From a virus: a stretch of DNA of 37,428 bases. The translations under genes and the position numbers were made by a program. The stretch covers positions 1 through 37,428 of the IMG/VR virus record IMGVR_UViG_3300008448_000265; one strand, written 5' to 3'. Below, piece after piece: positions 569-17,835 of this stretch. Numbering within the stretch: the stretch's first letter is position 1; each line of letters begins with the position of its first letter. The notes beneath the pieces were generated by a model. The model searched no databases, was not told where the DNA came from, and was given only the letters and a program-made list of their open reading frames with translations.

Positions 569-3205
569 CTATTTATTTAAATGTTGTCTTAATAATTTTT
601 TAAATTCAACTACGTGTTGAGGATAAGATTCAAAATATTCATTTACAAGGTAACGATGAACCTCTGCCAAATTACGTTGTTGTAACGCTTGTAGTAAATC
701 AGATGGTGAATTAAGTGGTAACATCACATTACCATTTTCATTTCCTGTAAGTAAATAGTTTCTATTACCTGGTTGTACATTAATAGATGCTACAATTTGT
801 TGATTTGCTAATCGGATGATGTAAATTTTACTGCCGCTTGGGAGTGAAACTACTTGTCCTACTCTACCTCTATTACCTAATTGGTTATTACGACGAGCAG
901 CACCTCTATCACCATTTGGATCAACACGAGAAGCATTTTGCACAGATAATCTTCTATAATCAGCTCTTGGTAAACGCATAAATGCTGTTTCTAATCCTGT
1001 TTCTCTCATTCTTTCAAACACGTTAATATCACCACCACCACCTGCTGCTGGTTGATCTGCTGCTGGTCTATTAGCTACACCTGCTGGTCTTCCTCTTCTA
1101 CCTGCTGTAGGGGCTGCTATTGCTGCCGCTGCTTGTCCACCTAACAATTGTCTTGCTAATGATGAAGGTACATTTGCTTTAACTAATTTACCTGATTGAT
1201 CAGATATTTTAAAGCTTTCTCTTGGATTAGCTGTATTAATAAGTAATGCTGTTTGGCCATTCATAGCAGGTTTTAATCTACTACTATTATCAATCGGAGG
1301 ATTTGATTGAATAAATCCTACTTTAGATTGACCATTCATTGAATATCCTTGATTACCTAATAATGTTCTTAAATCAGATTCAGTAAACACTTTATTAACT
1401 GCTCTTAAATAAGCAAAATATGATGCCCATTGAGTAGCATCTAAGTTATTACTAGTATCTCTACTTCTCCAATCATCTCTTCTACCATACCCGTAATCAA
1501 CAATTGATCTTTGTTGACGAGGATTAACATCAGCTGGCATTAAGAAAAATGAAGGTGATGATGTTCCTTCAGTAGCTGTAGTTAATACTACTGCTGTTGA
1601 ATCTCCTGCTGATATTGTTCTTTGACTATAAGGAATAGCATTTATAACAGATTTTAGAGCATCTTTATCTATAGTTGAAGGGATATTATCATTTACTTTA
1701 AATAAATTTAAAGCGTTTTGTTGGAATGATTCATTATCTTTAGCACCAGCAAATACTTGCTGTACTTCTTCATTATCGAAAGGTATAGGAACTATACCAC
1801 CATTTTTATCTACTTTGTATGAAGAAAATGAATTTGAATCTAATATTACTTCTCCATCTTCTACAGTTTTAACTATTAATGCAGAATCAGAATTATTTTT
1901 AGCACCGTCAATTACAGTAGTAATTACACTTCTATCAATTACTTCATCACCAGCTAATTTAACTAAATTTCTTAAAGGAATTTTATCTAATTCTGGGTAA
2001 TCAAGTAAATATTTTGATGTACGTTTGTTTAGTTTAATGTTAGGGAAATCATCATCAGCTTGGTATAAACCAACTTCTATATTATCTCCTAATTTTATTT
2101 TAACTATAGTACTACCGTCTTTAGTGATGTATAATCTTTCAACATTTCTAGTATCCCATTTATCCAATTGTACTAAAAGTTTTTTTACATCAAATGAAAA
2201 AGTTTCAGTTGAAAGATATTTTGTATTAATCTTTTCTTGAATATTTGCTGTAATAGATCTTCTAACTTGATTTGGAAATTTATCTAAATGTTTTAGTAAA
2301 ACTATATTATCAATTATACCAGGAGTTTCAGCTACAAATTTAGCTAATTCTGGGAATTTAGGTAAGTATTTTTCTACAAACTCTTCTTGATCAACATCTG
2401 AGAATGTTCCGCTACTTTTTCTAACAACTAAATATTGTTGTTTAGCTGAGAAAGGTAATTTAGACCATTCTCTATATGATATAGCACTTCCTCTATACTG
2501 CTGAGTAAATTTTTCTGCTGTTGATAACGGAATATATTTTAAAATAGATTTAATGTTTGGTACTTCTCTTAACCAAGGAATTTCACTCATCAAATCTTCA
2601 AAACTCATTGAATTAGATTCGTATGGGGAGTTTTGTCTATTTGTATAAACGTATCTACTATTTTCACGAGTTTTTTGAGGATCTCTAACTTGAATAGCAA
2701 CAAAACTTAATTTATCACTATCTGATATATTGCTGTTTTTTGCTAAGTAGAATGTTGGATATCCTTTACTTTCACTGTAACGATAACTAGAAAATGATGA
2801 TCTAGTAATACACCATTTTTCTCCACTACCGTATCTAATACAGTTATCTTCTTTACTACCATTATAAATAACAATAGTATTATTTTCATTATGATATACT
2901 ACATCAGGTGTAATATCTATTTCTTCAGCAGCTTCATCACCTTTAGTTGAAGTAACTAATTTAATAAATTTAGATAAAGTCCATTTACTTAAATCTCTTT
3001 GATCATTAGGTAATTTTTCCTTAATGCGATCAAAGGTCTTAATATAAGCTCTTAACTGATCGTCTGTAATATTGATATTAAGATCATCAGCTTCTTCTTT
3101 GAATTTTTTAATAAAACCTTGTACAGCTTTTTCACTATAGGCTTCATTAAGTTCATTTTTCCAATTATGGACAACGTGTAATATAAATTTATCTATCGCT
3201 CTCAT
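569..3205 (-). CDS. Large putative capsid-packaged phage protein with WCI motif
   Basis: An 878-aa protein from the start at 3205. A longer frame reaches an ATG at 3313, but that start overlaps the upstream gene by about 107 bp, whereas ATG 3205 lies 1 bp after that gene's TAG stop. From this start residues 1-22 form an amphipathic segment ending ELNE|A, which matches the (L/I)xE|A prohead-protease pattern seen in the neighbours. At about residues 125-155 is a YGSGEKWCITRS...PTFYLAKN block; I recall similar 'KWCI' blocks in large T4-like phage proteins of unknown function. A long middle region lacks recognisable motifs. An Ala/Gly/Pro-rich linker (about 680-735) separates a basic C-terminal domain. 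Function unknown; an internal virion or ejected protein is inferred. Confidence 0.75.
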   Translation of the reverse strand: MRAIDKFILHVVHNWKNELNEAYSEKAVQGFIKKFKEEADDLNINITDDQLRAYIKTFDRIKEKLPNDQRDLSKWTLSKFIKLVTSTKGDEAAEEIDITPDVVYHNENNTIVIYNGSKEDNCIRYGSGEKWCITRSSFSSYRYSESKGYPTFYLAKNSNISDSDKLSFVAIQVRDPQKTRENSRYVYTNRQNSPYESNSMSFEDLMSEIPWLREVPNIKSILKYIPLSTAEKFTQQYRGSAISYREWSKLPFSAKQQYLVVRKSSGTFSDVDQEEFVEKYLPKFPELAKFVAETPGIIDNIVLLKHLDKFPNQVRRSITANIQEKINTKYLSTETFSFDVKKLLVQLDKWDTRNVERLYITKDGSTIVKIKLGDNIEVGLYQADDDFPNIKLNKRTSKYLLDYPELDKIPLRNLVKLAGDEVIDRSVITTVIDGAKNNSDSALIVKTVEDGEVILDSNSFSSYKVDKNGGIVPIPFDNEEVQQVFAGAKDNESFQQNALNLFKVNDNIPSTIDKDALKSVINAIPYSQRTISAGDSTAVVLTTATEGTSSPSFFLMPADVNPRQQRSIVDYGYGRRDDWRSRDTSNNLDATQWASYFAYLRAVNKVFTESDLRTLLGNQGYSMNGQSKVGFIQSNPPIDNSSRLKPAMNGQTALLINTANPRESFKISDQSGKLVKANVPSSLARQLLGGQAAAAIAAPTAGRRGRPAGVANRPAADQPAAGGGGDINVFERMRETGLETAFMRLPRADYRRLSVQNASRVDPNGDRGAARRNNQLGNRGRVGQVVSLPSGSKIYIIRLANQQIVASINVQPGNRNYLLTGNENGNVMLPLNSPSDLLQALQQRNLAEVHRYLVNEYFESYPQHVVEFKKLLRQHLNK

Positions 3206-3206
3206 A

Positions 3207-4019
3207 CTATTTTGTTTTACCCCATGATTTGCCTTTACCTGGGTCTGAACATTGTGAAGGTGTTGGGCGGCAAGAAGGATATTTTGCCCTTGTTTCGCCT
3301 TTTTTACGGCCACAAGGCTTACATTTTTTCTTACCGTCTACCTCGCGACATGTATTACAATCAACCCATCCTCCTGTTTTACCAGGTGCACCTTTGCGTT
3401 TAAACCAGGTGCGGAGGGTTTCTTTTTTTGCTTCGTTCAATACATATTCTTTAAATAAACTATCAGCAAAATCATCAAAAGATGAAAGTCCACCTATTGG
3501 TATACCTGTTTGAGATAGGTTTTGATCTTCAAAACTTTTATATATATTTTTATCTACTATTTCAACATTATTTAATAATTCTTTAGGTATCATAACTTCT
3601 TCACCCTTAACTCCTCCAGGTACAGTATATTTATCAACATTTTCTTGAGGGATATCTATATAAGTTAAAACAGCATTTTGTCCATCTTCATAATATCCAT
3701 AGTAAAAAGGTAAAGCTATTCCTTCTAGTGATGTAGTATAACTTGGATTTTTTTTAACCTCATTAGGTCTATTACCTCTCCACAATCTAATAAATCCCGG
3801 TTTAACTTTTGGTAGTTTTTGAATTATCAAATCAGATAATTGTTTATAATAATTTACAGGTGTTAATTCCTCTTTAATACTTTTCCAAATATTGCCTTTA
3901 CGACAACGTACAATAGCACCTGACTTATAGGCAGATGGCTTATCGTATTTGCGATCAGCAATTCGTTTACAACGATCTTCGTTAAGAATTTCTTTTGCTA
4001 TATCTAATAATTTGATCAT
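3207..4019 (-). CDS. ADP-ribosyltransferase-like phage protein with capsid-targeting peptide and Cys-rich tail
   Basis: A 270-aa multidomain protein. Residues 1-14 (MIKLLDIAKEILNE) resemble a T4-type capsid-targeting peptide ending in L-N-E. Residues 16-46 are a small basic segment (KPSAYKSGAIVRCRKG) of a kind I recall in T4-like marine phages. Residues 74-146 show an R-S-E ADP-ribosyltransferase pattern: RLWRG (Arg81), YTTS (94-97), and GEEVMIP (Glu140/141). After a second L-N-E|A at 194-197 comes a Cys/Lys-rich domain (CNTC...CKPCG...YPSC...C, residues 221-257) that probably binds zinc. T4 Alt is a packaged, gp21-processed, injected ADP-ribosyltransferase, so the combination is coherent. 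The ART assignment rests on short motifs and could be wrong; a structure prediction would decide. Confidence 0.65.
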   Translation of the reverse strand: MIKLLDIAKEILNEDRCKRIADRKYDKPSAYKSGAIVRCRKGNIWKSIKEELTPVNYYKQLSDLIIQKLPKVKPGFIRLWRGNRPNEVKKNPSYTTSLEGIALPFYYGYYEDGQNAVLTYIDIPQENVDKYTVPGGVKGEEVMIPKELLNNVEIVDKNIYKSFEDQNLSQTGIPIGGLSSFDDFADSLFKEYVLNEAKKETLRTWFKRKGAPGKTGGWVDCNTCREVDGKKKCKPCGRKKGETRAKYPSCRPTPSQCSDPGKGKSWGKTK

Positions 4020-4020
4020 A

Positions 4021-4404
4021 TTACCATTTTCTACAAGACCAGTATCTTGCTTTAGTACGTGGTCCTGGGTTAGCGCAATTATGTCTTGCTCTAAAGGCGG
4101 CGCGACGTTTAGGATTATTTTTCTTAATATTCATTCCCTTAGCACCAAAGTTAACCTTTACAACTTTACCTGTTTTAGGATTTTTAACATATACCTTAAA
4201 CTTCTTACTATCACCACGCATTGGTTTACCTAAAGGTACTGTACGGCCTTGGTATTTGGCTTCTAACATGCAATCGCAATCAGCTTCATTTAATTCCTGC
4301 TGATACTCTTCCATAAATTGAACAAACTCTAGAATGTCTTGTTCATTCTCGACGTCATATTCATCAATTTCGTCTTCGTTTAATAATTCAATTAATTTAA
4401 TCAT
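4021..4404 (-). CDS. Small basic phage protein with capsid-targeting-like N-terminus
   Basis: A 127-aa protein. The start MIKLIELLNE|DE resembles the T4 Alt leader and ends in L-N-E at residues 8-10. An acidic segment follows, then L-N-E|A at 38-41 and M-L-E|A at 46-49. The C-terminal 75 residues are strongly basic: KKFKVYVKNPKTGKVVKVNFG, then RRAAFRARHNC and KARYWSCRKW with two cysteines. I recall this basic C-terminal block as a recurrent domain in T4-like marine phages, without a defined function. The acidic propeptide and basic core suggest a protein that binds DNA once the propeptide is removed by the prohead protease, as with T4 internal proteins. That role is inferred. The 2-bp gap to the next gene suggests co-translation. 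Confidence 0.72.
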   Translation of the reverse strand: MIKLIELLNEDEIDEYDVENEQDILEFVQFMEEYQQELNEADCDCMLEAKYQGRTVPLGKPMRGDSKKFKVYVKNPKTGKVVKVNFGAKGMNIKKNNPKRRAAFRARHNCANPGPRTKARYWSCRKW

Positions 4405-4411
4405 AGTTTAT

Positions 4412-4642
4412 TTATTTTTCGTGCCACCAATTGCAGCAATATTCATCAGCAGGATAAGGAATTTCTTCAACTCCATCATGCCATTTTAACCAATATTTGT
4501 TATTACATTTATTACCATCAGCAACCCAATATTCACAATTAGCACACATTGAACCGCCTTTAGTTACGCGCATTCCTGGTTTATGATCAGCTGAGTATTC
4601 TGCTGGTCCTTCTTTAAGAATAAGTTCTGATAACTTTATCAT
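4412..4642 (-). CDS. Small Cys/Trp-rich metal-binding-like protein with capsid-targeting-like N-terminus
   Basis: A 76-aa protein. It begins MIKLSELILKE|GPAEYS, so L-K-E|G occurs at residues 9-12, parallel to the neighbouring cargo candidates. The rest carries five cysteines: MCANCEYW (C-x2-C), a single C in NKCNN, and YCCNWW near the end, plus several Trp and His residues. The pattern suggests a small Zn- or Fe-S-binding fold; a high-potential iron-sulfur-like domain is one possibility, but I cannot decide which metal is bound. The start overlaps the stop of the upstream gene by 4 bp (ATGA type), so the two are translationally coupled. Confidence 0.7.
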   Translation of the reverse strand: MIKLSELILKEGPAEYSADHKPGMRVTKGGSMCANCEYWVADGNKCNNKYWLKWHDGVEEIPYPADEYCCNWWHEK

Positions 4643-4931: not shown

Positions 4932-5516
4932 TCAGAATTGGGTTATGTTCTTCACCTTTTCAATATATTCTTTAAATTCCTGAACCATTGTTTTATCGTC
5001 TCCTCCACTCCATACTTCTGTTTCACCATTTTCATTTACGATATGTTCTGAAGTGGTATCATTGATCATGTCTTCTAATATTTGTTCTAGATCATTAACA
5101 TAACTAGACGCGTTTCGTTGTACCATGTTTTTAACATAGTCTTCATATTTACCTTCAAGACGTAATTTAGTCTCCATTTTAATAACACAATCAAAACACT
5201 GTTTGTGGATTGAGTACATTTTGGAATCTAAATTCTTTTTCTTCATTGCTTTACCACAATTAGGGCATGTTAATGGAATTTGTAGTGATTTTTTAACTAA
5301 ATCAAGTTTTGAAATAGTCATTTTAATACCATTCTTTATAGTCCACTGCTTACCATTTTCTTCCCAAACATCACCTTCTTTATGATCAATGAATTCTTTA
5401 GTATAACCTACCTGGGTGGTGGTTTTATCACCGTATTTTTTATTAACTATATTTCTTATTCGTTGTACATCTCTTTCTCGAAACTCTTTTTTCAAAACAC
5501 TTTCGTTACCTGTCAT
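4932..5516 (-). CDS. Zinc-ribbon phage protein of unknown function
   Basis: A 194-aa protein. The N-terminal part (FRERDVQRIRNIVNKKYGD, residues 12-30, then EGDVWEENGKQWTIKNG) is followed by a four-cysteine zinc ribbon: CPNC at 84-87 and CFDC at 107-110. A helical acidic C-terminus completes it. I recall proteins with this arrangement as conserved in T4-like marine phages, without a known function. No capsid-targeting leader is visible, unlike most neighbours. Its ATG overlaps the TGA of... the upstream fusion gene, with a shared 4-bp ATGA (5513-5516), so it is probably co-expressed with that gene. A nucleic-acid-binding or assembly role is possible but not shown by the sequence. Confidence 0.72.
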   Translation of the reverse strand: MTGNESVLKKEFRERDVQRIRNIVNKKYGDKTTTQVGYTKEFIDHKEGDVWEENGKQWTIKNGIKMTISKLDLVKKSLQIPLTCPNCGKAMKKKNLDSKMYSIHKQCFDCVIKMETKLRLEGKYEDYVKNMVQRNASSYVNDLEQILEDMINDTTSEHIVNENGETEVWSGGDDKTMVQEFKEYIEKVKNITQF

Positions 5517-6910
5517 AAACCTAGTTCTTTTAGTTTTTCGATAGTGTTTGAAGCTGATGTATGATGTATTCCAATACCACCTGCTTCATTCCATCTTTGA
5601 ATATTATCTTTTCTATCATCAATTAAAATTGATTTAGGAGAAGCGTATAATTGTTTTTGGTCTGCTGATTTTAAAATTAAAGGTACATTAGGTAAATTTT
5701 GTTCTACCCATTTTTCCTTACCAGTTCTAGATGATTTTTCTCTTGAAGGTGCAGATAATAACTTTGGAGAATATGATTCAATGTAGCTCCATAATTCTTT
5801 TCCATCAGGCATCCATTCTAAATTAACCCAAAAACTTTCACCAGCATCAGAAAGTGGTTGCCAAAAATCAGCATCACCTTTAATGTGTTGTCCTCTAATA
5901 CTTTTACCAGTTAAATCTTCATATCCTTTTTCAAAATCAACTAGTACACCATCCATATCACAATAAATTTTATATTGTGGTTGATTTTCTTTAGCTTCAA
6001 AAATCATTGGATTTATTTGTGCAAATTTTCTCATTATTTGTCCTGCCTTAGCATTTGCTTCATTCTCAGTATCTGAACCTGTGGTTCCGTCTAAAGGTTG
6101 ACCGTTTTGTTTTTGTTTTAAATGTACTAATTCGTGTGAAACAGTTCGGCAGACATCAGCCATGTTGCGGTTACCAACATATATCCATATCTTATCGTCT
6201 TGTGGGTTATACAATCCCATCGACTTCATTTCCCTCGCTTTCTCCGTATCCCTACTTATCACTATCCTACCCCCCATTCCCTTAATCCCTAACTCTCGTA
6301 GGGTGAATTTAATGAATTCTTTTAATAAATCCAAGTTTTCTTTACCTTCTTTTAAAGGTTCTTCTTCTACCGTATCTTCCATTTCATATCCCGCTGCGTT
6401 CATGAAGTCTTTTACATCAATCCCGTTTGGTAGAAACTGTTGAATTAAATCAGCCTTTTTTGATTTTATAGCAATTCTAAATTGTGTAGCATTCACACCA
6501 CTAAAATTACCAGCATCAAATAATTCAGCATTTTTGTATTTTTCATTTTTTAAAATAGCTGAAAAACGAGTAAATTCATCTTTACCAAATGCAGCAACAA
6601 TTTTAGCGTCTGGATTTGAAGTAATTAGGTCATATGTTTCACGTACAGGATTTTCATCTACTACTAAGAAATTAACATTCCCTGGTAATAATGTTTTATA
6701 TAATTCCCATACTTTATAACTTTCATCAGCAGTAATTCCCTCACGTGTTTTAGGTGAGATAAATACTTGCACCTCATCACATATATCAGCAAGTCTTCTG
6801 ACTACATCAAAGTGTCCTTTGTGTGGTGGTTTGAATGCACCTGGAAATACACCAATCGTGTATTGTTCTGCTTCTAATATTTGGTGTGCTATGTATTGAC
6901 CTAAATTCAT
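5513..6910 (-). CDS. Nucleotidyltransferase / HExxH peptidase-like / HAD nucleotidase fusion, putative polyprotein
   Basis: A 465-aa three-domain fusion. Residues 16-175 are a cytidylyltransferase-like/NMN adenylyltransferase-like domain: FPGAFKPPHKGH (HxGH at 30-33) and SGVNATQFR (137-145, the ISxTxxR position). Residues 195-300 hold HELVH (259-263) with ENEANAKAG (282-290) supplying a likely third zinc ligand, as in phage zinc metallopeptidase-like domains. Residues 312-465 are a HAD-type 5'-nucleotidase-like domain: DMDGVLVDF (Asp318/320), LLSAPS, and ILIDDRKDN (Asp431/432). The N-terminus ends I-L-E|A (13/14), and L-K-E|G (188/189) and I-F-E|A (305/306) fall in the two linkers, suggesting cleavage into three proteins. 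Substrates are unknown; NAD or nucleotide metabolism is inferred. Four-base overlaps with both neighbours indicate tight coupling. Confidence 0.8.
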   Translation of the reverse strand: MNLGQYIAHQILEAEQYTIGVFPGAFKPPHKGHFDVVRRLADICDEVQVFISPKTREGITADESYKVWELYKTLLPGNVNFLVVDENPVRETYDLITSNPDAKIVAAFGKDEFTRFSAILKNEKYKNAELFDAGNFSGVNATQFRIAIKSKKADLIQQFLPNGIDVKDFMNAAGYEMEDTVEEEPLKEGKENLDLLKEFIKFTLRELGIKGMGGRIVISRDTEKAREMKSMGLYNPQDDKIWIYVGNRNMADVCRTVSHELVHLKQKQNGQPLDGTTGSDTENEANAKAGQIMRKFAQINPMIFEAKENQPQYKIYCDMDGVLVDFEKGYEDLTGKSIRGQHIKGDADFWQPLSDAGESFWVNLEWMPDGKELWSYIESYSPKLLSAPSREKSSRTGKEKWVEQNLPNVPLILKSADQKQLYASPKSILIDDRKDNIQRWNEAGGIGIHHTSASNTIEKLKELGL

Positions 6911-7743
6911 TTTGATGTAAATTCTTTAACTTTTGAAATAACTTCTTGCTCAGATAAAGCAGATTCTTTAATTTTAGAATCTATATTAATAAATTCTCGT
7001 TCTAATTGAGAAATTAGTTGTTTAAATTGTTCTCTTGATTTTTCTGCGGCTTTAGCTTTTTTAGCTTGCTCATCAGGTGATAAAGGTGTATCTGATGTTT
7101 TACGGAACGTTGATGAAAACTGCTCAGGGTTACTTTTAGTCAATTCGTCTAACCATTCATATAGTTTTCCTTGTTGAACAGCTTGATTAAATCCATCAAT
7201 TTCCTTTTGATATTCTTCATCTGGAGCTTGATATAACACAAAATTATCTCCCAATTTATTTTTATAAGTATCTATATTACCATATACACTATTCCACGTT
7301 GATATAACACCTATTTTAGGTACTTTACGTTCACGTTTAAAATTACGTAAAAATGACACAATAGGGTGGGCATAAACCATTATCATCATTTTATCATAAC
7401 CTTCTATATTCAAAATACCAGGAGTTTCTTTGCGCTTATAAACGCCTCCTACCATTTTAGCTGCGTTAGATGCTGTTGTATCCCAAATAAATGCTCTACC
7501 TTGTGATATAGCTTGAGGAACATCAACATCATCAACCTGCATTGAAGCCTGAGTTAAACTATTGTACATTGGACTATCCTTATCCTCAACATATTTGTCT
7601 GGATTTATAATCTCAAAACCAGGTGCAGCACTTTTAATTTTATTAATTAATGTGCTTTTACCAGCCCCGGCGCCTCCTGCCATGATTATCATTTTATTTT
7701 TAGGAGTGGCTACTTCTAGTAACAAGTCTATTAGTTTAATCAT
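6907..7743 (-). CDS. P-loop kinase (zeta-toxin/polynucleotide-kinase-like) with capsid-targeting-like N-terminus
   Basis: A 278-aa protein from ATG 7743. An in-frame ATG at 7782 exists, but it would place the start inside the hairpin at 7757-7785 and add 13 residues ahead of MIKLIDLLLE|VATP; the shorter start gives the same leader as the neighbouring cargo genes. The Walker A motif GGAGAGKST is at 23-31, followed by INPDKYVED (46-54) and AFIWDTTASN (84-93), an arrangement typical of zeta-toxin-like and polynucleotide-kinase-like P-loop phosphotransferases. The C-terminus is a charged helical tail with a further L-S-E site. It probably phosphorylates a nucleotide, nucleic acid or sugar nucleotide; the substrate cannot be read from the sequence. 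A 4-bp overlap couples it to the fusion gene. Confidence 0.78.
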   Translation of the reverse strand: MIKLIDLLLEVATPKNKMIIMAGGAGAGKSTLINKIKSAAPGFEIINPDKYVEDKDSPMYNSLTQASMQVDDVDVPQAISQGRAFIWDTTASNAAKMVGGVYKRKETPGILNIEGYDKMMIMVYAHPIVSFLRNFKRERKVPKIGVISTWNSVYGNIDTYKNKLGDNFVLYQAPDEEYQKEIDGFNQAVQQGKLYEWLDELTKSNPEQFSSTFRKTSDTPLSPDEQAKKAKAAEKSREQFKQLISQLEREFINIDSKIKESALSEQEVISKVKEFTSK

Positions 7744-7806: not shown

Positions 7807-10800
7807 TTATCTACCGAAGGTATAGCGAATACCTAACTGAGCTGTCCATACATCAAATACTGATGAATTGTATTGGTATGTATCTTTTGCTAAGTAAGTA
7901 CCACTAGCATCACGTTGAGTAGCTAATCTATATGTTGGAACACCTGCAGCATCTCTGCTAACAAAGTTCAACAATTGAGGAGCTGTTGCGCGTTGTGAAA
8001 CACCCCACTCATTATTCAACATATTACCAAAGTTTAAGATATCTGCTCTGATTTGGAAAGCATTGCGTTTACCTTTAATTTTGATAAATACATCTTGTGC
8101 TACTGAGAAATCAAATCTATGTAGCATAGGAAGTGCTAAAGCGTTTCTTTCAGCATATTGACCTCTACGAGTTGATAAATAAGGATCTTGATCAATAAAG
8201 GCATCAAATGCAGCTTGTTGTTGAGCCTCAGTATAAACTGTAGTACCAACTGTTAAAGATGCAAAACGAATATCTGTAGCTTTATTTGGTACAAATACTA
8301 AATCATTATTTGATACTCTATCACCATTTAAGTCACCGGCTACGATATAAGAGAATGGATTGTTTTGTGAACCTACATATCCTAATGTAAATGTAGTAGC
8401 ACCACCATATTTCTTACCATAGTCTAAACGGTATCCTAATAAACCTACGATACGATTTCTAACTAAGAATGATGAAGTAGTTAAACCTAAATTATTATTA
8501 CCATTAACTGATAACGCTGACTGCCAAGAACCACTAGCAATTGAACCGGCGTCCATAAAATCTTGTGCGTTTGCAGCTGTATAAGCTACATAACCCCAAA
8601 TACCTTTAGATGCTGGTTTTTCTAGTTTGAATGTTGCTGAACGATTAAAGGCACCATTTTTATTTGTTAAAACAGCAGCCATTGAAACGTTGTTATTTAC
8701 TCTTACAGTAGCATCAGTACCACCATAAAGATCTCTATTATCAACACCACCTAATTTACCAACTGGTGATTTTAAGTTAGCATTGTAATAATGAACTGCG
8801 TTAAGTGTTTTGTTGTACAATAATTCAACACTAGCAATTAAACCTAACCAAGGTAATTTTTGATCAACAGCAATGTTATTTTTCCAAACTTGTGGAAACT
8901 TATAATTAGGGTCTGTTAATGCTAAATCAAATGTAGATGGTAAGGTTGGAGTTGATGGGATAAAGTATTGATTTGGATTAGCAGTAAAACCATAAGCGGC
9001 GGCTGCAGCACCTGATACATCAATAAATCCTGACAACACACCAGTATTCCCAATTTGGTTAGATAAGAATACATAAGGAGGACGACCTGTAAAAATACCT
9101 GTACCACCTCTAACTTGTGTTTTGCTTTCACCTTTATGGTTGTAATTAAATCCGAAACGAGGTTCGAATAATAATTGGCTTTCTGGCATTACACCTGTAT
9201 TCCATTTTTCACCATTAGCAAAAGTCATAGCAGTAACTGCTTGGTTTTCTAATGCTGTATTAGCGATTGAAATAATATTTGCTCTAATACCTGCTGTTAA
9301 TTTTAAATTCTTACTTACGCTATATTCATCTTGTAAATATAAATCTGTTCTATAAGATTCTAAAGTTTGCATTGGAGCAACTCCACCTGGTAATGCTGAA
9401 TATCTTAATTGAAAGCGAGCAGGAGCAAATGTAGATGGTTTACTACCATTAGCTAATGATTGATTTGCTGCTGTGTAAAAATCTGCTAGGCTATTAAAGA
9501 TATAAACACCGTTTGATGCAGGGAAGAATAAGTTGTTAGATTGATATTGTTGGAAATTAAATCCACCAACTAATGTATGTTTACCTAAATACTTAGTTAA
9601 GTTATTGGTAACGTTAAATGTCCAATAATTTAATTTGTTATCTGGAGTAAATGGATCGAAACCTACAGAAGTGTAAGTTGCTGAACCATCTCTGATGTCA
9701 ATAGTAGGGAACATATTACTCATATAAGCTCTATCTTCAATTTGCTTATCGTAAGAAACGATTAAGTTATTGTATAAAGTGTTAGAGATTTTAGAGTTTA
9801 ATTCTAATACTGCTGAACGAGTGTTATCCATAATAATATAACCACTATTTTGGAATGACATAGCATTAAACTGAGTTGTTCTATTACCCGCCCCTGCTGA
9901 TTGAGAGTTTGAAATATTAATTTCTGCAGATGAGTTGTGATGAACATAACGAGCAGTTAATTTATTCTTGTCGTTGATATTCCAGTCAGCGCGAATCAAA
10001 AATTTCTTTGATGAATTTTGATTTGAATAACCTTCCCAAGGACCAGTTGTATAATCAAATTTTTCTTTCATAAACTTAGATAAAGCTTCCATATCGGAAT
10101 ACTTTACACGAGATATTTGAGTACCTGTAAGTGGAGATCCTGCTGAAATCCAAGTTGTACCTGGTTCTGTTCTAACAATACCTTCGTAGTTACCAAATAA
10201 AAATAATTTGTTTTTAACAACAGGTAAGCCTAATCTAAAACCTTGTACTTTTTCATCAAATTTAGCTGCAGTAACTGTAGTACCACGTGCATTATCACCT
10301 ACATAACGAGATGAATTATCACGTTGTGTTTGATAAACACTACCTTCAATTTCATTTGTACCTGATCTTGTAACAGCGTTAATACCAGCACCTGTAAATC
10401 CAGATTGACGAATGTCAAATGGTGCTACGTTAACCTGTAATTGATCAATCGCGTCAAGTGAAATTGCTGAAGCGCCTGTACGGCCACCTGCTGCTGCTGA
10501 AGAGCCTAAACCGAAGTTGTTGTTGAACTGAGATCCATCGATTGTAAAATTGTTCAAACGAGAATCTTGTGCACCAAAAGAACTACCATTACCAAATGGA
10601 TTGTACTTAGTAATTCCATCGATTGTTCTTGCACCTGTGATTGGAATAGAAGTTAATTCTCTTCTTCCAAACTGTTGTGCAGCACCAGTTTTTCCTTTAG
10701 AAAAGATGTTGTTGCGAGTACCATTAACAACTACTTCTTTAAGAGCTGTTGCTTCATCTACTAAAACGAAATCAACATTAGATGTAATACCTAATTGTGT

Positions 10801-11079
10801 GTTGATTTCACTTGCTTCACTTTTCTTATATCCAACATAGGAAACGTGAATTGTGTACGGACCACCTACTCTAATAGCAGGAAATACGAATACACCTGTC
10901 TTACTTGTCTGGGCCTTGTACTCAGTGCCCGTCGGAACGTGGATAGCATGGATCGTTGCTCCAGCTAACACTTCTTGCTTCTCATTCTTAACAACACCCG
11001 AAATAGAGGAAGTGGTAATCTGACCAAATCCAACCAAGGCGAATGCAGAAAGAAGTAACGATAAAATCGCTTTTTTCAT
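7807..11079 (-). CDS. Oar-like TonB-dependent outer-membrane receptor
   Basis: A 1090-aa protein of the usual size for Bacteroidetes Oar/TonB-dependent receptors with an N-terminal carboxypeptidase-regulatory-like domain. Residues 1-19 are a signal peptide (MKKAILSLLLSAFALVGFG). About 25-105 is the beta-sandwich domain (SISGVVKNEKQEVLAGATI...). ALKEVVVNGTRN (about 110) leads into the plug (about 115-235). The remainder is a long beta-barrel ending LGIRYTFGR, a typical outer-membrane C-terminus. It would sit in the host outer membrane and, with TonB, transport or bind an unknown ligand; Myxococcus Oar is linked to protease export. It appears intact. It is embedded between phage genes in the same orientation and bounded by hairpins, which suggests a moron acquired from a host. 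Confidence 0.9.
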   Translation of the reverse strand: MKKAILSLLLSAFALVGFGQITTSSISGVVKNEKQEVLAGATIHAIHVPTGTEYKAQTSKTGVFVFPAIRVGGPYTIHVSYVGYKKSEASEINTQLGITSNVDFVLVDEATALKEVVVNGTRNNIFSKGKTGAAQQFGRRELTSIPITGARTIDGITKYNPFGNGSSFGAQDSRLNNFTIDGSQFNNNFGLGSSAAAGGRTGASAISLDAIDQLQVNVAPFDIRQSGFTGAGINAVTRSGTNEIEGSVYQTQRDNSSRYVGDNARGTTVTAAKFDEKVQGFRLGLPVVKNKLFLFGNYEGIVRTEPGTTWISAGSPLTGTQISRVKYSDMEALSKFMKEKFDYTTGPWEGYSNQNSSKKFLIRADWNINDKNKLTARYVHHNSSAEINISNSQSAGAGNRTTQFNAMSFQNSGYIIMDNTRSAVLELNSKISNTLYNNLIVSYDKQIEDRAYMSNMFPTIDIRDGSATYTSVGFDPFTPDNKLNYWTFNVTNNLTKYLGKHTLVGGFNFQQYQSNNLFFPASNGVYIFNSLADFYTAANQSLANGSKPSTFAPARFQLRYSALPGGVAPMQTLESYRTDLYLQDEYSVSKNLKLTAGIRANIISIANTALENQAVTAMTFANGEKWNTGVMPESQLLFEPRFGFNYNHKGESKTQVRGGTGIFTGRPPYVFLSNQIGNTGVLSGFIDVSGAAAAAYGFTANPNQYFIPSTPTLPSTFDLALTDPNYKFPQVWKNNIAVDQKLPWLGLIASVELLYNKTLNAVHYYNANLKSPVGKLGGVDNRDLYGGTDATVRVNNNVSMAAVLTNKNGAFNRSATFKLEKPASKGIWGYVAYTAANAQDFMDAGSIASGSWQSALSVNGNNNLGLTTSSFLVRNRIVGLLGYRLDYGKKYGGATTFTLGYVGSQNNPFSYIVAGDLNGDRVSNNDLVFVPNKATDIRFASLTVGTTVYTEAQQQAAFDAFIDQDPYLSTRRGQYAERNALALPMLHRFDFSVAQDVFIKIKGKRNAFQIRADILNFGNMLNNEWGVSQRATAPQLLNFVSRDAAGVPTYRLATQRDASGTYLAKDTYQYNSSVFDVWTAQLGIRYTFGR

Positions 11080-11984: not shown

Positions 11985-12934
11985 ATTAATTGTAATTTTT
12001 TCTCAAGCAGAGTCTGTAAAGTCAGAGGTTGTGTTTGCTCGAGAGTGTTTAAGAATGCTTCGAAGCCAATTTCATTTGCATCTTTACCTTCTAACTCAAC
12101 CATATAAACTTCCTTTCCATATGACATAAGTTTTTCAGCATGTTTAAGAGCATCTTTTTTAGCATCATTGTCTAATGCAATGTATATTTTGTCTACTGAG
12201 GATTTAACTAATTTTTCCATCAATTTATCATGTAGTACCTTTCCTAGTAGTGGAATACAATTGCGTTTAATTGTTACAGCATCAAACATACCTTCACAAA
12301 GTATGATTGGTGCATCCCAATTAATATATAATTCAAAACCAATAATATCTTTAGATGATACTGGTGGATTTTTGTATTTACGTAATGATGGTTCCTTATA
12401 ATCTCTAGCTATAAAATAATTAAGTTGTCCGTTTGCTCCATAGGATGGGATTATTATCCTACCTTCGTATTTTCCGTCCTTACAAAAGCCGATATTATAT
12501 TTTAAAATATCATCGGGTGTAATACCTCTTTTCTTTAAAAATTTAAGAGCATGTTTTGATTCGATTTGAGCCATTCTATCAGTCATAAACCTAGCATGGT
12601 TATCAAATGTAATAAATTCTTCTGGTAATGTAAGTGCTTCGTGAGATATATGTTCTTCCTTAGCTGCTGGTTTGATTAATAAATCTAAGTCTTTAAACCT
12701 GTCAGCTGTTGCTTTAGCACGTTTGAATAATGAACGTATGCTTTTACCCTTAGCATCACATACCCAACAATGCCAAAAATTTTCACGTTTTGACGTTGTG
12801 CGTAATGATACTTCTAGCTTGTTTTTGTGGTGTGAACAAAATGGACATTTAAAGGCATAATTGCCTTTACTTGTTATTTGTCCTTTACCTAAAACAGACT
12901 CTACTAATACTAGTAATGCTGCGTTTTCAATCAT
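11981..12934 (-). CDS. DNA primase, gp61/DnaG-type
   Basis: A 317-aa protein with an N-terminal CHC2-type zinc-binding domain (CPFC at 30-33, H36, CWVC at 56-59) and a C-terminal TOPRIM domain: ILCEGMFDA (Glu214, Asp218) and ALDNDA (Asp255, Asp257). This is the layout of DnaG-family primases, and the size is close to that of T4 gp61. It would synthesise RNA primers for lagging-strand synthesis together with a replicative helicase that is not in the window. The gene is followed by the PD-(D/E)XK nuclease with a 4-bp overlap and preceded by a GIY-YIG nuclease 20 bp upstream, forming a small DNA-metabolism block between tail genes and the receptor gene. Confidence 0.88.
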   Translation of the reverse strand: MIENAALLVLVESVLGKGQITSKGNYAFKCPFCSHHKNKLEVSLRTTSKRENFWHCWVCDAKGKSIRSLFKRAKATADRFKDLDLLIKPAAKEEHISHEALTLPEEFITFDNHARFMTDRMAQIESKHALKFLKKRGITPDDILKYNIGFCKDGKYEGRIIIPSYGANGQLNYFIARDYKEPSLRKYKNPPVSSKDIIGFELYINWDAPIILCEGMFDAVTIKRNCIPLLGKVLHDKLMEKLVKSSVDKIYIALDNDAKKDALKHAEKLMSYGKEVYMVELEGKDANEIGFEAFLNTLEQTQPLTLQTLLEKKLQLI

Positions 12935-12954
12935 ATAACCATTAATATACGAAC

Positions 12955-13410
12955 TTATTCTGCCTCAAACAAGTCTTTACGGAAGAATTTACCTAATATG
13001 TTATCATTTAGGTAACGGTCATCTTCCAACACGTTGTGTTGAAACAGATATTTTGTTTCCCAGTATGTTAATTGTTTACTGGTTTTGCATAGTTTATATA
13101 CGTAACGTTTTAAATTTTCTTTTGGTAATTTTTTAACCTCAGTTGATGAACCATAATATGTCTTCCAGTCACTTTCTGATATGACTAATTTTTTGCTTGG
13201 TTTTTTACCACGAGCCACAGGTAACGTTGCTAATTCTTTCTTACCTAATTTCTTATTTTGTTTATGAAAGAATGCTTTTTTACCAATATATTGTTTTCCT
13301 GTTGTTGTGTCAACAGTGCAATAAACATATCCATAATATTCAGAGGGGTCAAAATTGGGATCATTGATTAGATCCTCGACCTGTTGGACAGGTCCTACAA
13401 CTTGCATCAT
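12955..13410 (-). CDS. GIY-YIG-like endonuclease
   Basis: A 151-aa protein. GYVYCTVDTTTGKQYIGKK (residues 27-45) gives the GIY...YIG signature as GYV...YIG. WETKYLF (about 117-123) supplies a plausible catalytic Glu, and YLNDNI (about 133-138) a late Asn. These match small phage GIY-YIG proteins, a family that includes homing endonucleases such as T4 Seg proteins. No separate DNA-recognition domain is obvious, so it could be a DNA-repair or host-DNA-degrading nuclease rather than a homing enzyme. It lies between tail-fibre genes and the primase. The family call is good; the specific role is open. Confidence 0.72.
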   Translation of the reverse strand: MMQVVGPVQQVEDLINDPNFDPSEYYGYVYCTVDTTTGKQYIGKKAFFHKQNKKLGKKELATLPVARGKKPSKKLVISESDWKTYYGSSTEVKKLPKENLKRYVYKLCKTSKQLTYWETKYLFQHNVLEDDRYLNDNILGKFFRKDLFEAE

Positions 13411-13425
13411 AACAATTTATTTATT

Positions 13426-13734
13426 TTAAATATCGTACTTAATCAAGAAAGTCATATCTGTTTCTGTTGAAACAGGGATTGGTTTTCCTAATTTTGCAAC
13501 CATTAATAATTCATTCTGTTCATTATATAAACCAATAGTAGTTACATAAGGTCTAAATTCTGAACCAGTAGCAAATCCTACTAACGATGATGATATGTTA
13601 GTTCTTTCAGATAACAAACTAGGATTGTAAGTTAAGTTGTATTCACTTTCCTCAACACTACATTTTACAAAGTTTTCATAAACTGTGTGTTCGTTTCTAA
13701 AATTAATATTAAATGATCCTGTATAAGCTGGCAT
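13426..13734 (-). CDS. Small tail-associated protein sharing a C-terminal domain with the 318-aa protein
   Basis: A 102-aa protein. Residues 28-102 (EESEYNLTYNPSLL...YVTTIGLYNEQNELLMVAKLGKP...LIKYDI) are clearly similar to the last 80 residues of the 318-aa protein at 17856-18812 (SEYNYTSNPSII...YITTVGLYNDNNELLAVAKLSKP). The short N-terminus (MPAYTGSFNINFRNEHTVYE) differs. The shared module may be a docking or oligomerisation domain that attaches fibres or adhesins to the baseplate. The gene ends the tail-fibre cluster. Function inferred from context only. Confidence 0.72.
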   Translation of the reverse strand: MPAYTGSFNINFRNEHTVYENFVKCSVEESEYNLTYNPSLLSERTNISSSLVGFATGSEFRPYVTTIGLYNEQNELLMVAKLGKPIPVSTETDMTFLIKYDI

Positions 13735-13748
13735 AATTTATAAGTATT

Positions 13749-14600
13749 TTATACTGGGCATAATATTGGGTATGTACTCACTCCAGAGGTTAATTGAACT
13801 GATGCTTGTAGAGGTGTAGGGTTAACAAGATAAGGCACACTACCAGCCATATTATCTATATCTCCACTATAGAACAATTCTCCTGAAGATGTTATATTAA
13901 TATCACATACTCTGTAACGAACAATATTACCTGATCCAGCACTCCAAGATCCAGTTATTGAGTATGGAACTTCAGATGGGGTAAAATAAAGTGTTCCACT
14001 CTTAGAAGTAGCTGTTGTTGATTCATTTAATACTTGAGTTCCATTAGCATTTTGTACTTGTAATATACCTGATCCCCCATTTCCTGGACTCATACTCCAG
14101 TTAAGCATAATTGTAGTAGATCCTGTAACACAAGAACCACTAGCAATAATAGTACCTGCATTATATCCATTAATATTTCCTGTTCCTACTTGATACCAAG
14201 TACCACTAGAAACATAATAACCATCTGGTGCTAATTCTAAACTAGAAGATAAGTATAATCTAGATCCTGTATATAATGTAACGTTAGAAGTTTCATCTAA
14301 CATAACACCAGTATAATCTATATTAATTGTTGATGTATCTAAATAAAATTGATCACAATCACCACTTGCACAAGCACTACCAGAAGTTGAACCAGAACAG
14401 AAAGTAAAAGGACCGTATAAGCAATCTCTCCATTTTCCATTAGCTAAACTGCTAGTATAGCGCTCTTCATAATAAAAGTTAGTTCCACAAAAACTTTCAG
14501 TTGGTGAAGTAAGGGAATGACTATACCCTACAGGTGAATTATTATCTGTAAAATATTGTGTTACCTTTGTATAAATCTTATTTCCTGATCTTCTTATCAT
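13749..14600 (-). CDS. Putative tail-fibre/adhesin protein
   Basis: A 283-aa protein rich in Ser, Thr, Gly and Tyr, with a cysteine-rich stretch near residues 67-85 (FCSGSTSGSACASGDC) and predicted beta-structure throughout. There is no signal peptide or membrane segment. The composition, including recurrent TGS triplets, matches the 1072-aa fibre just upstream and the other tail genes of this cluster. It is probably a distal fibre or receptor-binding component. The ATG at 14600 follows a minus-strand ATATATTTATAAT segment. No enzymatic motif is visible and I do not recognise a named family. Confidence 0.65.
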   Translation of the reverse strand: MIRRSGNKIYTKVTQYFTDNNSPVGYSHSLTSPTESFCGTNFYYEERYTSSLANGKWRDCLYGPFTFCSGSTSGSACASGDCDQFYLDTSTINIDYTGVMLDETSNVTLYTGSRLYLSSSLELAPDGYYVSSGTWYQVGTGNINGYNAGTIIASGSCVTGSTTIMLNWSMSPGNGGSGILQVQNANGTQVLNESTTATSKSGTLYFTPSEVPYSITGSWSAGSGNIVRYRVCDINITSSGELFYSGDIDNMAGSVPYLVNPTPLQASVQLTSGVSTYPILCPV

Positions 14601-14616
14601 CTATTATAAATATATT

Positions 14617-17600
14617 TTAACATGAGGTATAATTAGTTACCATACCAGATGAATTAGTAACAACAGCATATAAAGCTACTCCGTTAAATGATAGTGGTTT
14701 CCATTGTCCTCCAGTATTTAACGGAGTTGTTAAACCTGTATCCTCATAAATGTAAGTTACATTTGACTGGAAGAAGTTAACATTAGAATAATAAGCTCTA
14801 GAACTAAAGTAGTTAGCGCAAGCACCACCAGATGTACCTGACAATCCACTTACAGGACCTAATATGCTGTAATAATTAGTACAAGTTCCCATATTAGAAG
14901 ATAAAGTAGGATTAGCAACTGTGCTTTGATTCCAACTTAATCTTACTTCATTTCCACTTGTTAAGTTATCTGTTTTAACTAAAGTATAACCATAAGTTCC
15001 TGGTGTTAGTGTTATATATCCATTACTTGTACCTTGAGTATCAGAATAGAATGTTTGACCTACGCTTGTTATAACAAAGGTACCTGTAGCAATTACACCA
15101 TTAATAGTTAAACTAAAATCAGCATTTCCAGAGCTTGAACCTCCAGAATTATACTTAGCCCAAACATTTACATTACCTCCTGTTACTACAATACTACCTG
15201 TAGCATATGATCCACCACCACCAGTAACTGGTACTGTACCAAATACTGTTGTATAACATACAGATCCTGAAGGTGGAGGAGGAGTTGAGCCTGTTGCTAA
15301 ATTACTTTCAACTTTTACTAAGTAGTATTTACTTGATTCAGCTGTAAAGCTAGAATAAGGCCAGTAAGCACTTCCTGTTTCAATACTAGAGGTTGTATAT
15401 GTTAACGAACCTGTAGCATAAACGGACATTGTGTGAGATGCTGATGGGTAACTACCAGACCATCCATTATCACCCACATATATAGGAGCTTCAAATGAAT
15501 ATAAAGTTCCACTATGTAGTTGGATGTATTTAGTATCTGTTGTAAATAGTGTAACTACATCTTGGCTATTTGCTTTAACTTTAAGATTAGTACCAACTCC
15601 CGAAGATTCATCTACTAAAATAACAGCATTTAATTCTTGACATGCTGGATCTGAGTATCTGTATTCACGAGCTCTTACATTTACACTTCCAGAAGCTACA
15701 CATCCATTAGCATCAGCTACTGTTATATTCCAAGTACCACCATTTAATCCATCATTTAGATTAATAGATATTGGGTTTGTTGCTGTAGGGCCTTGAGAAA
15801 GCGTTGTTCCACCTTTTTGTACCACGTAAGTATAAGGAGAAGTTCCACCTGTAACACCAATATTAACGCTAGTATCACATTCATTATATGTTAAAGATGA
15901 GCTTAAGTTAGTGAATCCAGCAGAAGATGATAATGAAGCACTAGCTGCAAAAGTACATCCTGTGCCTAAATCGGTTACTGTTAAAGTATATGTACCTACA
16001 CTTCCTGTAATTATACTTCCTGTAGCTCCTGTATTCCATAAGTAGCTAAATCCAGTTCCGCTACCACCACTAACAGATGATGAAATCTGTCCACTACCAC
16101 TACATGAACCATTAGTTGTAGTTAAATTAACTGATATTGGGCTTACACTATTAATAGTTGCACTACCTGTAACAGTACAAGAACTAGCATCTGTTACAGT
16201 TACCACGTAAGTTCCAGCAGGTAACCCTGTTGGATCTTCTGTTGTACGAACAACTGTTGATCCTGTAGTCCAAGAGTAAGTATAAGGTGCAGTACCTCCA
16301 GAAACAGTTATATTAATTGCTCCAACATCTTGTCCTACTTCAGGACAGTCAGATGAAGTTGAATTAATTACTACTGAAAGTGCTGTTGGTTGAGTAATAG
16401 TAACTAATGAAGATGTTGTACAAATGTTATCTTTAACAGTTACTGTATAAGTTGCTGGTGTTAAGTTTGAGAATAATGTATTGGTTGTGAATCCTTGCCA
16501 TGTGCTTCCACCATTAATAGAAGCAGAGTAAGGGGCTCCAAAACTAGAAGACCCAGTAACTGCTATTTTTCCATTACCACTACCACCGCAAGACACATTA
16601 ATTGAACTTATGTTAACAGTAAATACATCAGTAGTTATATTTAATGATTGAGAAACTATAGTTCCTTCACTATCTCTAACATATAAAACATCCCCAGTAA
16701 CAGCTGAAGTTGATGCTGTTGGTTGATACCATTCACAGTTATTTAAATTATTCCATGTGCTTCCACCAATAGAATATTGGTAAGGAGGAATGCCATAATT
16801 TATAGAAAAAGTAACATTGGCTACCCCACCAGGACAAACATAGCTTTGAGAAGATAAAGTATTTAATACAAGAGGTAATTTATATAGTTCTAAATCAATA
16901 GAAGCAGTATTACTTCTTAAACAAGTATCATCATTTACTGTATAGTATAATTTATAATTTCCTGGTGTAACTCCTAGAGTTTCACATTCGTCAATATATA
17001 ATGAACCTGTTATTATTGTAAATAAAGGAAAACTATAGTTAGGATAACTATAAGTTGCTATTGAGCCAGTATTAATATTAGTTGAAATACAATCAATATA
17101 GTCATTAGACAGAACATTTAATTGTTTAACACGTTGTACGTTTAATATTCTAAAATAATCATTTACTGCATTAGGAGGAGTAGGTAGAAAACATTTGTAA
17201 TTAGGATTAGTAATTACAACAATTCCTTGAGAGTAAAAAATATTTCCTACAAATACCTTGTTATTTAAATCAGCAATATATCCTGGAGGTGCGTAATATC
17301 CTTGTTGTACGTAATATCCTGTAAAATATATATCGTATACGTTACCATATCCATCATCAACTAATTGAAAAGAATTAGGGGCTGTTAAAACAAAACAGTT
17401 TGGTTTAATTTGTTCACCATAAATGTTTTGGTTAAATTTCATTACCCTAACAAAATCATTAGATCCTGTTGGGAAATCACTTATAAATTCAGGATCTTCA
17501 TTAAAATTAAAGTAGGAACCAGTTAAAATAGTTCCAGACTCTGTAGGAGCTGAATTATAGTAAAGTGAATCTTGTAAAGAATGAGAATTTAATGTGCTTG

Positions 17601-17835
17601 ATGAAGCATATTGATAATACAAATGGTTTATATTTCTATAAACTAGACTTTCATATTGTCCTTCAGTAACAGGTCCGTTAACTAAATCAATACTTCCTGT
17701 TAAATTTTTTCCTTTGTATATAGTAAAGTATGCACCATCCTGAGGGACGCAATTAAAATCAAGATTCCATTTTTTGTTGGCTACGTAAGGAACAACAAAT
17801 ACGTCTTGAGTACTCAGTTTTTTGAATGATGCCAT
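14617..17835 (-). CDS. Large tail fibre/adhesin with SprB-like repeats
   Basis: A 1072-aa protein. Residues 1-320 form a specific N-terminal region, probably for attachment to the tail. About 325-720 hold five Ig-like repeats, roughly 75-80 residues each, with the pattern GG-xxPYxYxW...aGTYxVTVTD...C (for example TAPYTYSWTTGS and GTYVVTVTDASSCTV). This is the SprB/PKD-like repeat common in gliding adhesins of Bacteroidetes. After a short VRAREYRY segment, the C-terminal 350 residues are Ser/Thr/Gly-rich beta-structure, likely to carry receptor binding. The position among baseplate and fibre genes supports a host-recognition role. The repeats suggest gene flow from, or mimicry of, host surface adhesins. 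Confidence 0.8.
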   Translation of the reverse strand: MASFKKLSTQDVFVVPYVANKKWNLDFNCVPQDGAYFTIYKGKNLTGSIDLVNGPVTEGQYESLVYRNINHLYYQYASSSTLNSHSLQDSLYYNSAPTESGTILTGSYFNFNEDPEFISDFPTGSNDFVRVMKFNQNIYGEQIKPNCFVLTAPNSFQLVDDGYGNVYDIYFTGYYVQQGYYAPPGYIADLNNKVFVGNIFYSQGIVVITNPNYKCFLPTPPNAVNDYFRILNVQRVKQLNVLSNDYIDCISTNINTGSIATYSYPNYSFPLFTIITGSLYIDECETLGVTPGNYKLYYTVNDDTCLRSNTASIDLELYKLPLVLNTLSSQSYVCPGGVANVTFSINYGIPPYQYSIGGSTWNNLNNCEWYQPTASTSAVTGDVLYVRDSEGTIVSQSLNITTDVFTVNISSINVSCGGSGNGKIAVTGSSSFGAPYSASINGGSTWQGFTTNTLFSNLTPATYTVTVKDNICTTSSLVTITQPTALSVVINSTSSDCPEVGQDVGAINITVSGGTAPYTYSWTTGSTVVRTTEDPTGLPAGTYVVTVTDASSCTVTGSATINSVSPISVNLTTTNGSCSGSGQISSSVSGGSGTGFSYLWNTGATGSIITGSVGTYTLTVTDLGTGCTFAASASLSSSAGFTNLSSSLTYNECDTSVNIGVTGGTSPYTYVVQKGGTTLSQGPTATNPISINLNDGLNGGTWNITVADANGCVASGSVNVRAREYRYSDPACQELNAVILVDESSGVGTNLKVKANSQDVVTLFTTDTKYIQLHSGTLYSFEAPIYVGDNGWSGSYPSASHTMSVYATGSLTYTTSSIETGSAYWPYSSFTAESSKYYLVKVESNLATGSTPPPPSGSVCYTTVFGTVPVTGGGGSYATGSIVVTGGNVNVWAKYNSGGSSSGNADFSLTINGVIATGTFVITSVGQTFYSDTQGTSNGYITLTPGTYGYTLVKTDNLTSGNEVRLSWNQSTVANPTLSSNMGTCTNYYSILGPVSGLSGTSGGACANYFSSRAYYSNVNFFQSNVTYIYEDTGLTTPLNTGGQWKPLSFNGVALYAVVTNSSGMVTNYTSC

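Follow-up and report, generated by a model that had tools for sequence, protein, structure and literature searches.

Organization of the locus

The window analysed here is a 37,428-nt viral fragment without head genes (record IMGVR_UViG_3300008448_000265, positions 1-37,428). All window features described below lie on the minus strand, and a slash within a sequence marks a predicted cut. An ORF with an ATG start at 5513-6910 encodes a putative cargo polyprotein of 465 amino acids, in which a leader is followed by a nucleotidyltransferase, a metallopeptidase and a HAD phosphatase. A first-pass annotation, made from the sequence alone, had recognized these three domains by their HKGH, HELVH and DMDGVLVDF motifs and had placed protease sites between them; the motifs (residues 30-33, 259-263 and 318-326) and the sites are all present.

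The leader (residues 1-13; 6872-6910) reads MNLGQYIAHQILE13/A and resembles a capsid-targeting sequence (CTS): residues 3-13 form an amphipathic helix in an AlphaFold2 model, E13 is invariant, and similar leaders are found on stand-alone modules. The first predicted cut site, ILE13/A14 (6869-6880), is supported by motif match and conservation. The piece that follows (residues 14-188; 6347-6871) is a HIGH-superfamily nucleotidyltransferase of the NMNAT/PPAT-like kind, as its HxGH-type motif and a match to TIGR00125 (32.4 bits against a cutoff of 27.7) show. Pfam CTP_transf_like fell marginally under its cutoff (20.7 versus 21), and NadM, PPAT and NaMNAT were among the top fold matches; this assignment holds for the superfamily only, and no substrate is assigned. 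The second predicted site, LKE188/G189 (6344-6355), lies within a low-confidence linker (residues 178-191) and opens the metallopeptidase piece (residues 189-305; 5996-6346), identified by alignment and by profile matches to DUF6782 and phrog_87, both weak. Membership of DUF6782 (PF20573) was rejected, the score of 14.5 bits not meeting the gathering score of 27. With HExxH (HELVH) and a downstream ENEAN, the domain is likely to be a zinc peptidase outside DUF6782, its protease activity being inferred from motifs. The third predicted site, IFE305/A306 (5993-6004), falls within another low-confidence linker (residues 305-311) and is supported by motif, conservation, pLDDT and module context. 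The remainder (residues 306-465 and the stop codon; 5513-5995) belongs to the 5'(3')-deoxyribonucleotidase-like HAD phosphatases, as shown by the DxDG motif and by phrog_2643 (5'-3' deoxyribonucleotidase, E=2.6e-30); its activity is inferred. Profile and fold matches reach the superfamily level only, and exact enzyme substrates were not resolved. An Rfam search of the window gave no match.

The AlphaFold2 model, built from an alignment of nine sequences, has a mean pLDDT of 73.8, and values below 50 occur only at residues 1-17, 178-191 and 305-311, which are the leader and the two linkers. The domain borders thus lie where the first-pass annotation had placed them, and cuts at the three sites would yield pieces of 175, 117 and 160 amino acids, one whole domain each, as it had computed.

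Several neighboring genes carry similar leaders. The 3' end of a P-loop kinase/zeta-toxin-like gene (6907-7743; Zeta_toxin PF06414 above cutoff; leader MIKLIDLLLE/V, start as in relatives) overlaps the start of the polyprotein gene in the sequence ATGA. On the other side are genes for a 76-aa protein with the leader MIKLSELILKE/G (4412-4642, assigned by sequence), an 878-aa protein with the leader MRAIDKFILHVVHNWKNELNE/A (569-3205, start as in relatives), and an 83-aa protein with the leader-like sequence MTHTELKQAIREAIEKVLAE/G (316-567, also by sequence). Two more genes are of modular build. In one (4021-4404), a leader is joined to a basic AKYQGRTV module that starts directly after MLE48/A49. 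The other (3207-4019) encodes a second chain, without a peptidase, that runs from a leader ending ILNE14/D through a DUF5872-like module, the joint SIKE50/E, an ADP-ribosyltransferase-like (ART-like) module and the joint VLNE196/A to a basic module. The two end modules are fused directly or nearly so in relatives L038 and L055, are linked by a different insert in L007, and form two separate leader genes in L076; the ART-like module stands alone in L113, behind a leader ending MNE/N.

The name of the ART-like module (3435-3869) rests on LWRG, YTTSLEG and GEE motifs, which are reminiscent of R-S-E ADP-ribosyltransferases such as T4 Alt. The module matched no profile family, and its AlphaFold2 model was too poor to support the identity (pLDDT 44.6, two sequences), which remains a motif guess.

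Two further genes of the window were observed in passing. Between an exonuclease gene and the leader-bearing kinase gene lies an ORF for a 1090-aa TonB-dependent-receptor-like protein (7807-11079; PF25183 and CarboxypepD_reg above cutoff). Its place is empty in L003, is taken by other genes in L001 and L005, and holds a 28% identical gene in L009. Homologues with 66-91% identity occur at 78 further viral-contig loci, 11 of which have the neighbors of the window phage within 6 kb. An outer-membrane receptor carried by a phage would be unusual; it is a possibility only, the receptor identity coming from profile matches. A predicted tail-region protein of 1072 amino acids (14617-17835) matches the SprB repeat (PF13573, 30 bits against a cutoff of 28). 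The SprB repeat is known from Bacteroidota adhesins.

Predicted cleavage sites and module context

T4 gp21 cuts after L/I-x-E (PMC9026906), and all three predicted sites therefore meet the strict T4 rule. The first-pass annotation had cautioned that other LxE matches, such as LKE/F at 198, called for a control. The loose motif [LIVMF]xE has ten matches in the protein (13, 69, 86, 91, 183, 188, 198, 206, 305 and 462) and is thus unspecific by itself; we discarded it as the sole evidence for sites. When a small P1' residue is required ([LIVMF]xE[AGS]), exactly three matches remain, one at each border (13, 188 and 305). The chance of a match in every one of the three border segments is 0.0013 by shuffling of the whole protein and 0.0027 by shuffling within borders. 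Seven loose matches do lie beyond the three sites, and two of these (198 and 206) are LxE sequences in a folded helix, which counts against the proposal.

Conservation of the sites is shown by an alignment of nine fused homologues, 42-81% identical to the window protein, in which E13, E188 and E305 are invariant while neighboring residues vary. Homologues lacking the linker sites would have refuted the proposed processing; E188 and E305 are kept in all nine. One fused subfamily has an extra site 3-4 residues beyond the last joint (IFEKLTE/G, IFEVLNE/G, IFETLNE/D), as if a site is retained but free to shift slightly in position.

The viral contigs that were scanned yielded 77 relatives. In most of them HAD is a separate gene whose leader ends in hydrophobic-x-E right before the domain (MYKLTDLYKQLKE/E, MIKLLDILKE/A), and the protein upstream is a chain of about 320-1300 amino acids. 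Its modules, which vary in order and number, include the nucleotidyltransferase, the peptidase, a Zn-ribbon, a basic DPKKGTGKKP module, a hydrophobic module and others, and the joints are almost always [LIVMF]xE. Some joints resemble an entire leader that lacks only the initial Met; LARQFLKEALIE/T in L016 is one such case. Leader and joint sites are alike at P2 (K, N or E) and at P1' (small or acidic); [LIVMF]xE inside domain cores differs from them in usually being followed by L, K, N or W. P3 at the joints of the relatives is often V, compared with L/I in the published T4 motif, a point against the proposal.

Breakpoints in the chains, taken from local alignments, had [LIVMF]xE within 6 residues in 232 of 486 cases against 113 expected (z=12). 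The ratio of observed to expected was 0.8-1.0 for the variants [LIVMF]xK, xD and xQ and 1.3 for the reversed motif, and control proteins from the same contigs (tail, replication and TonB) showed no enrichment (7 of 57 breakpoints against 7.9 expected). A site was present at both ends of 37 of 128 clustered pure insertions, with 0.18 expected; the events overlap, and these numbers are indicative. Related sequences and overlapping events inflate the counts in general. A chance origin of the sites is ruled out by the shuffles, the control motifs and the control proteins.

The presence of a site depends on what adjoins the module. The peptidase module ends in NWEDSIKN or NPxIF. Where it is last in the chain, none of 15 distinct C-termini has a site; with a further module behind it, a site is present in 25 of 26, and only L035 differs, with VNK at this place (Fisher 2.5e-10, without correction for relatedness; short tails also offer scant room for a site). 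Shuffling of 22 distinct post-peptidase junctions gave 10.3 expected sites against 21 observed, and the reversed motif occurred 10 times against 10.1 expected. L119 and L179, which are close to the window type, have HAD as a separate ORF, and their peptidase ends in EEIYQ, without the glutamate. The HAD of these two lacks a leader, which counts against the proposal and indicates that packaging of HAD is not universal.

A site precedes the basic AKYQGRTV module in the window, as it does in four phages that have an S77 protease (C48C1, HTVC008M, Melnitz and immuto). Among 11 phages without a detected S77 protease, the module begins at its own initiator Met in nine; in CRP-2 it has an extension without a site, and in CRP-6 a 14-residue extension containing LEE. 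In Aegir and Kolga the module reads M-AKYQGRTV, and the predicted cut product is thus the natural protein after Met removal. In the Roseobacter phage CRP-6 (L197, 238-816), the part of the protein that comes after the basic AKYQG-like module (RMVYGWASVVTEKG...) may, judging by likeness alone, be another kind of prohead protease; this would fit a head role for the basic module.

The chains of immuto, L034, L065 and L077 have a polymerase-beta-like module first and no leader, and their leader-like helix is internal. A simple CTS model does not explain these chains. The L078 chain (12246-14969) likewise opens with a polymerase-beta-like module and has no leader in front. In L078, as in L034, L065 and L077, an internal leader-like helix ending in a site was observed before the HIGH nucleotidyltransferase.

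Head protease, virion evidence and proposed processing

Near relatives do encode the protease: L001 and L003, records of 161 and 171 kb, have both Peptidase_S77 (gp21) and gp23. Among eight long relatives, Peptidase_S77 was above the curated cutoff in six, and gp23 likewise in six. The gp23 N-terminal region and scaffold-like proteins of relatives bear the motif (LVVE/S and similar). The cultured Flavobacterium phage immuto, whose genome has an annotated prohead protease, shows the same gene order: primase, exonuclease, a 907-aa nucleotidyltransferase chain and HAD.

Mass spectrometry of CsCl-purified virions has detected nucleotidyltransferases of the same superfamily in three T4-like cyanophages, S-SCSM1 (PMC9602691), S-SZBM1 (PMC9146016) and S-CREM2 (PMC10665884). 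The S-SCSM1 protein starts MKSFLQFLKE/AAES and that of S-SZBM1 starts MRFRQFIIE/AVAA. Both leaders are of the T4 CTS type, and an S77 protease is encoded in each of the two genomes. These two cases likely tie the leader to the virion independently, with the reservation that the authors allow for carry-over from the lysate. The Baltic Flavobacterium phage paper contains no virion proteomics.

We propose that a T4-superfamily phage targets the 465-aa protein to its capsid as a cargo polyprotein and that the prohead protease cuts it there, inside the prohead. We consider this reading likely (probability about 0.8), with packaging and cleavage inferred. Like the CTS of T4 internal proteins, the amphipathic leader would bring the entire chain into the prohead core. 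During head maturation the gp21-type protease would cut after E13, E188 and E305, stripping the leader and parting the nucleotidyltransferase, the metallopeptidase and the HAD phosphatase. The freed enzymes would remain in the head with the DNA until ejection, when they would enter the host as three separate proteins. In T4, internal proteins of about 8-20 kDa remain in the head (PMC9026906), and the predicted pieces fall within this size range. There is precedent for a cut far from the N-terminus in T4 Alt, at LTE-619 (PMC5694885). The gp21-type processing of a packaged polyprotein that the first-pass annotation had suggested is thus supported; packaging in the window phage, the cuts themselves and ejection remain inferred, there being no proteomics for this phage. 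Its further suggestion, that three enzymes are delivered at a fixed ratio, follows from the model only, and the ratio is likewise inferred.

Three other explanations were weighed. It could be that only the leader is removed, the domains entering the host as one trifunctional enzyme with linkers of uncut, flexible acidic sequence. Among gp21 substrates, leaders are the best established; most cuts in T4 internal proteins lie close to the N-terminus (PMC9026906), and cleavage data are absent for the 465-aa protein. This alternative nevertheless appears unlikely: sites come and go with the adjoining modules, the linker glutamates are invariant amid varying neighbors, and these positions match the reversed motif and the K, D and Q variants at close to chance frequency.

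Processing of the chain by its own embedded metallopeptidase would accord with the HExxH domain and with the proposal of the PMC5512222 authors that embedded MPTase domains of polyvalent proteins free individual units. This is disfavored, since like joints are present in chains without a peptidase (3207-4019, 4021-4404, L038, L055 and Melnitz); the joints also match leader sites and the published gp21 motif, and we regard self-processing as very unlikely. Finally, the sites might be scars of fused leader-bearing genes, a leader end having been left at each joint without present use. Modules do exist as separate leader genes, and some joints resemble a whole leader without Met. Against this, the glutamate is kept where the remaining linker changes, sites are renewed at slightly shifted places, and any residual leader end would remain a protease substrate once the chain was in the prohead; little likelihood attaches to this explanation either.

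Under the cargo-polyprotein reading, the enzymes may act early in infection on NAD or nucleotide metabolism, because an NMNAT-like enzyme beside a leader-bearing P-loop kinase recalls NadR, which combines a kinase with an NMN adenylyltransferase (PMC9503650). This is a weak inference, made without assigned substrates. A bolder reading is that T4-superfamily phages with flavobacterial, Pelagibacter, Methylophilales and cyanobacterial hosts share exchangeable cargo cassettes, each an effector module with prohead-protease sites at its ends. Such modules would recombine at those sites, be loaded either as single genes with their own leader or strung together in long chains that share a leader, and be freed in the head. 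We favor this wider reading by a modest margin. If the proposal is true, hydrophobic-x-E at joints would be a simple sequence rule for injected effectors now annotated as hypothetical or metabolic, and the joint sites would show precisely where each mature product begins and ends. It would also help to explain the nucleotidyltransferases in cyanophage virion proteomes, and dsDNA phage heads would gain a polyprotein strategy otherwise tied to RNA viruses or to embedded peptidases.

Comparison with known systems

No published phage cargo polyprotein cut by a prohead protease was found in the open-access literature searched; most subscription journals were outside its scope, and an earlier description is not excluded. 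The closest systems each share part of the arrangement. The CTS-targeted, gp21-cut T4 proteins IPI-III and Alt (PMC9026906, PMC5694885) likewise have a short amphipathic leader ending in L/I-x-E, with an S77 protease in the same phages and ejected enzymes or small proteins as the cargo; Alt is also cut near its C-terminus. In T4, each cargo gene encodes a single functional unit, whereas here one leader serves several enzyme modules and every joint has a site. In the phiKZ-like phages, a gp21-related protease cuts after x-x-E and can cut a protein several times, as in SPN3US gp245, cut after A-x-E (PMC10052503, PMC5694885). Those cuts remove or fragment propeptides; separation of several enzymes is not described in the sections of those papers that bear on it.

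The NMNAT/cytidylyltransferase proteins of S-SCSM1, S-SZBM1 and S-CREM2 share the superfamily of the window domain and occur in virions, the first two with a CTS-like leader. Unlike the window protein, they are not fused to a peptidase and HAD, and the relevant sections of the cyanophage papers (PMC9602691, PMC9146016, PMC10665884) mention no leader, joint or processing. The polyvalent proteins of phages and conjugative elements (PMC5512222), already likened to polyproteins in that paper, are as here large and multidomain, include a metallopeptidase and are predicted to enter the host with the DNA. Their criterion of several unrelated domains per chain is met by three domains in the 465-aa protein and by more in its relatives. 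Release of the units has been proposed to depend on the embedded peptidase in polyvalent proteins, whereas the joints described here bear prohead-protease motifs, even in chains without a peptidase. The cargo chain thus likely combines traits of T4 internal proteins with those of polyvalent proteins, release apparently being left to the prohead protease, by a cleavage that is itself inferred.
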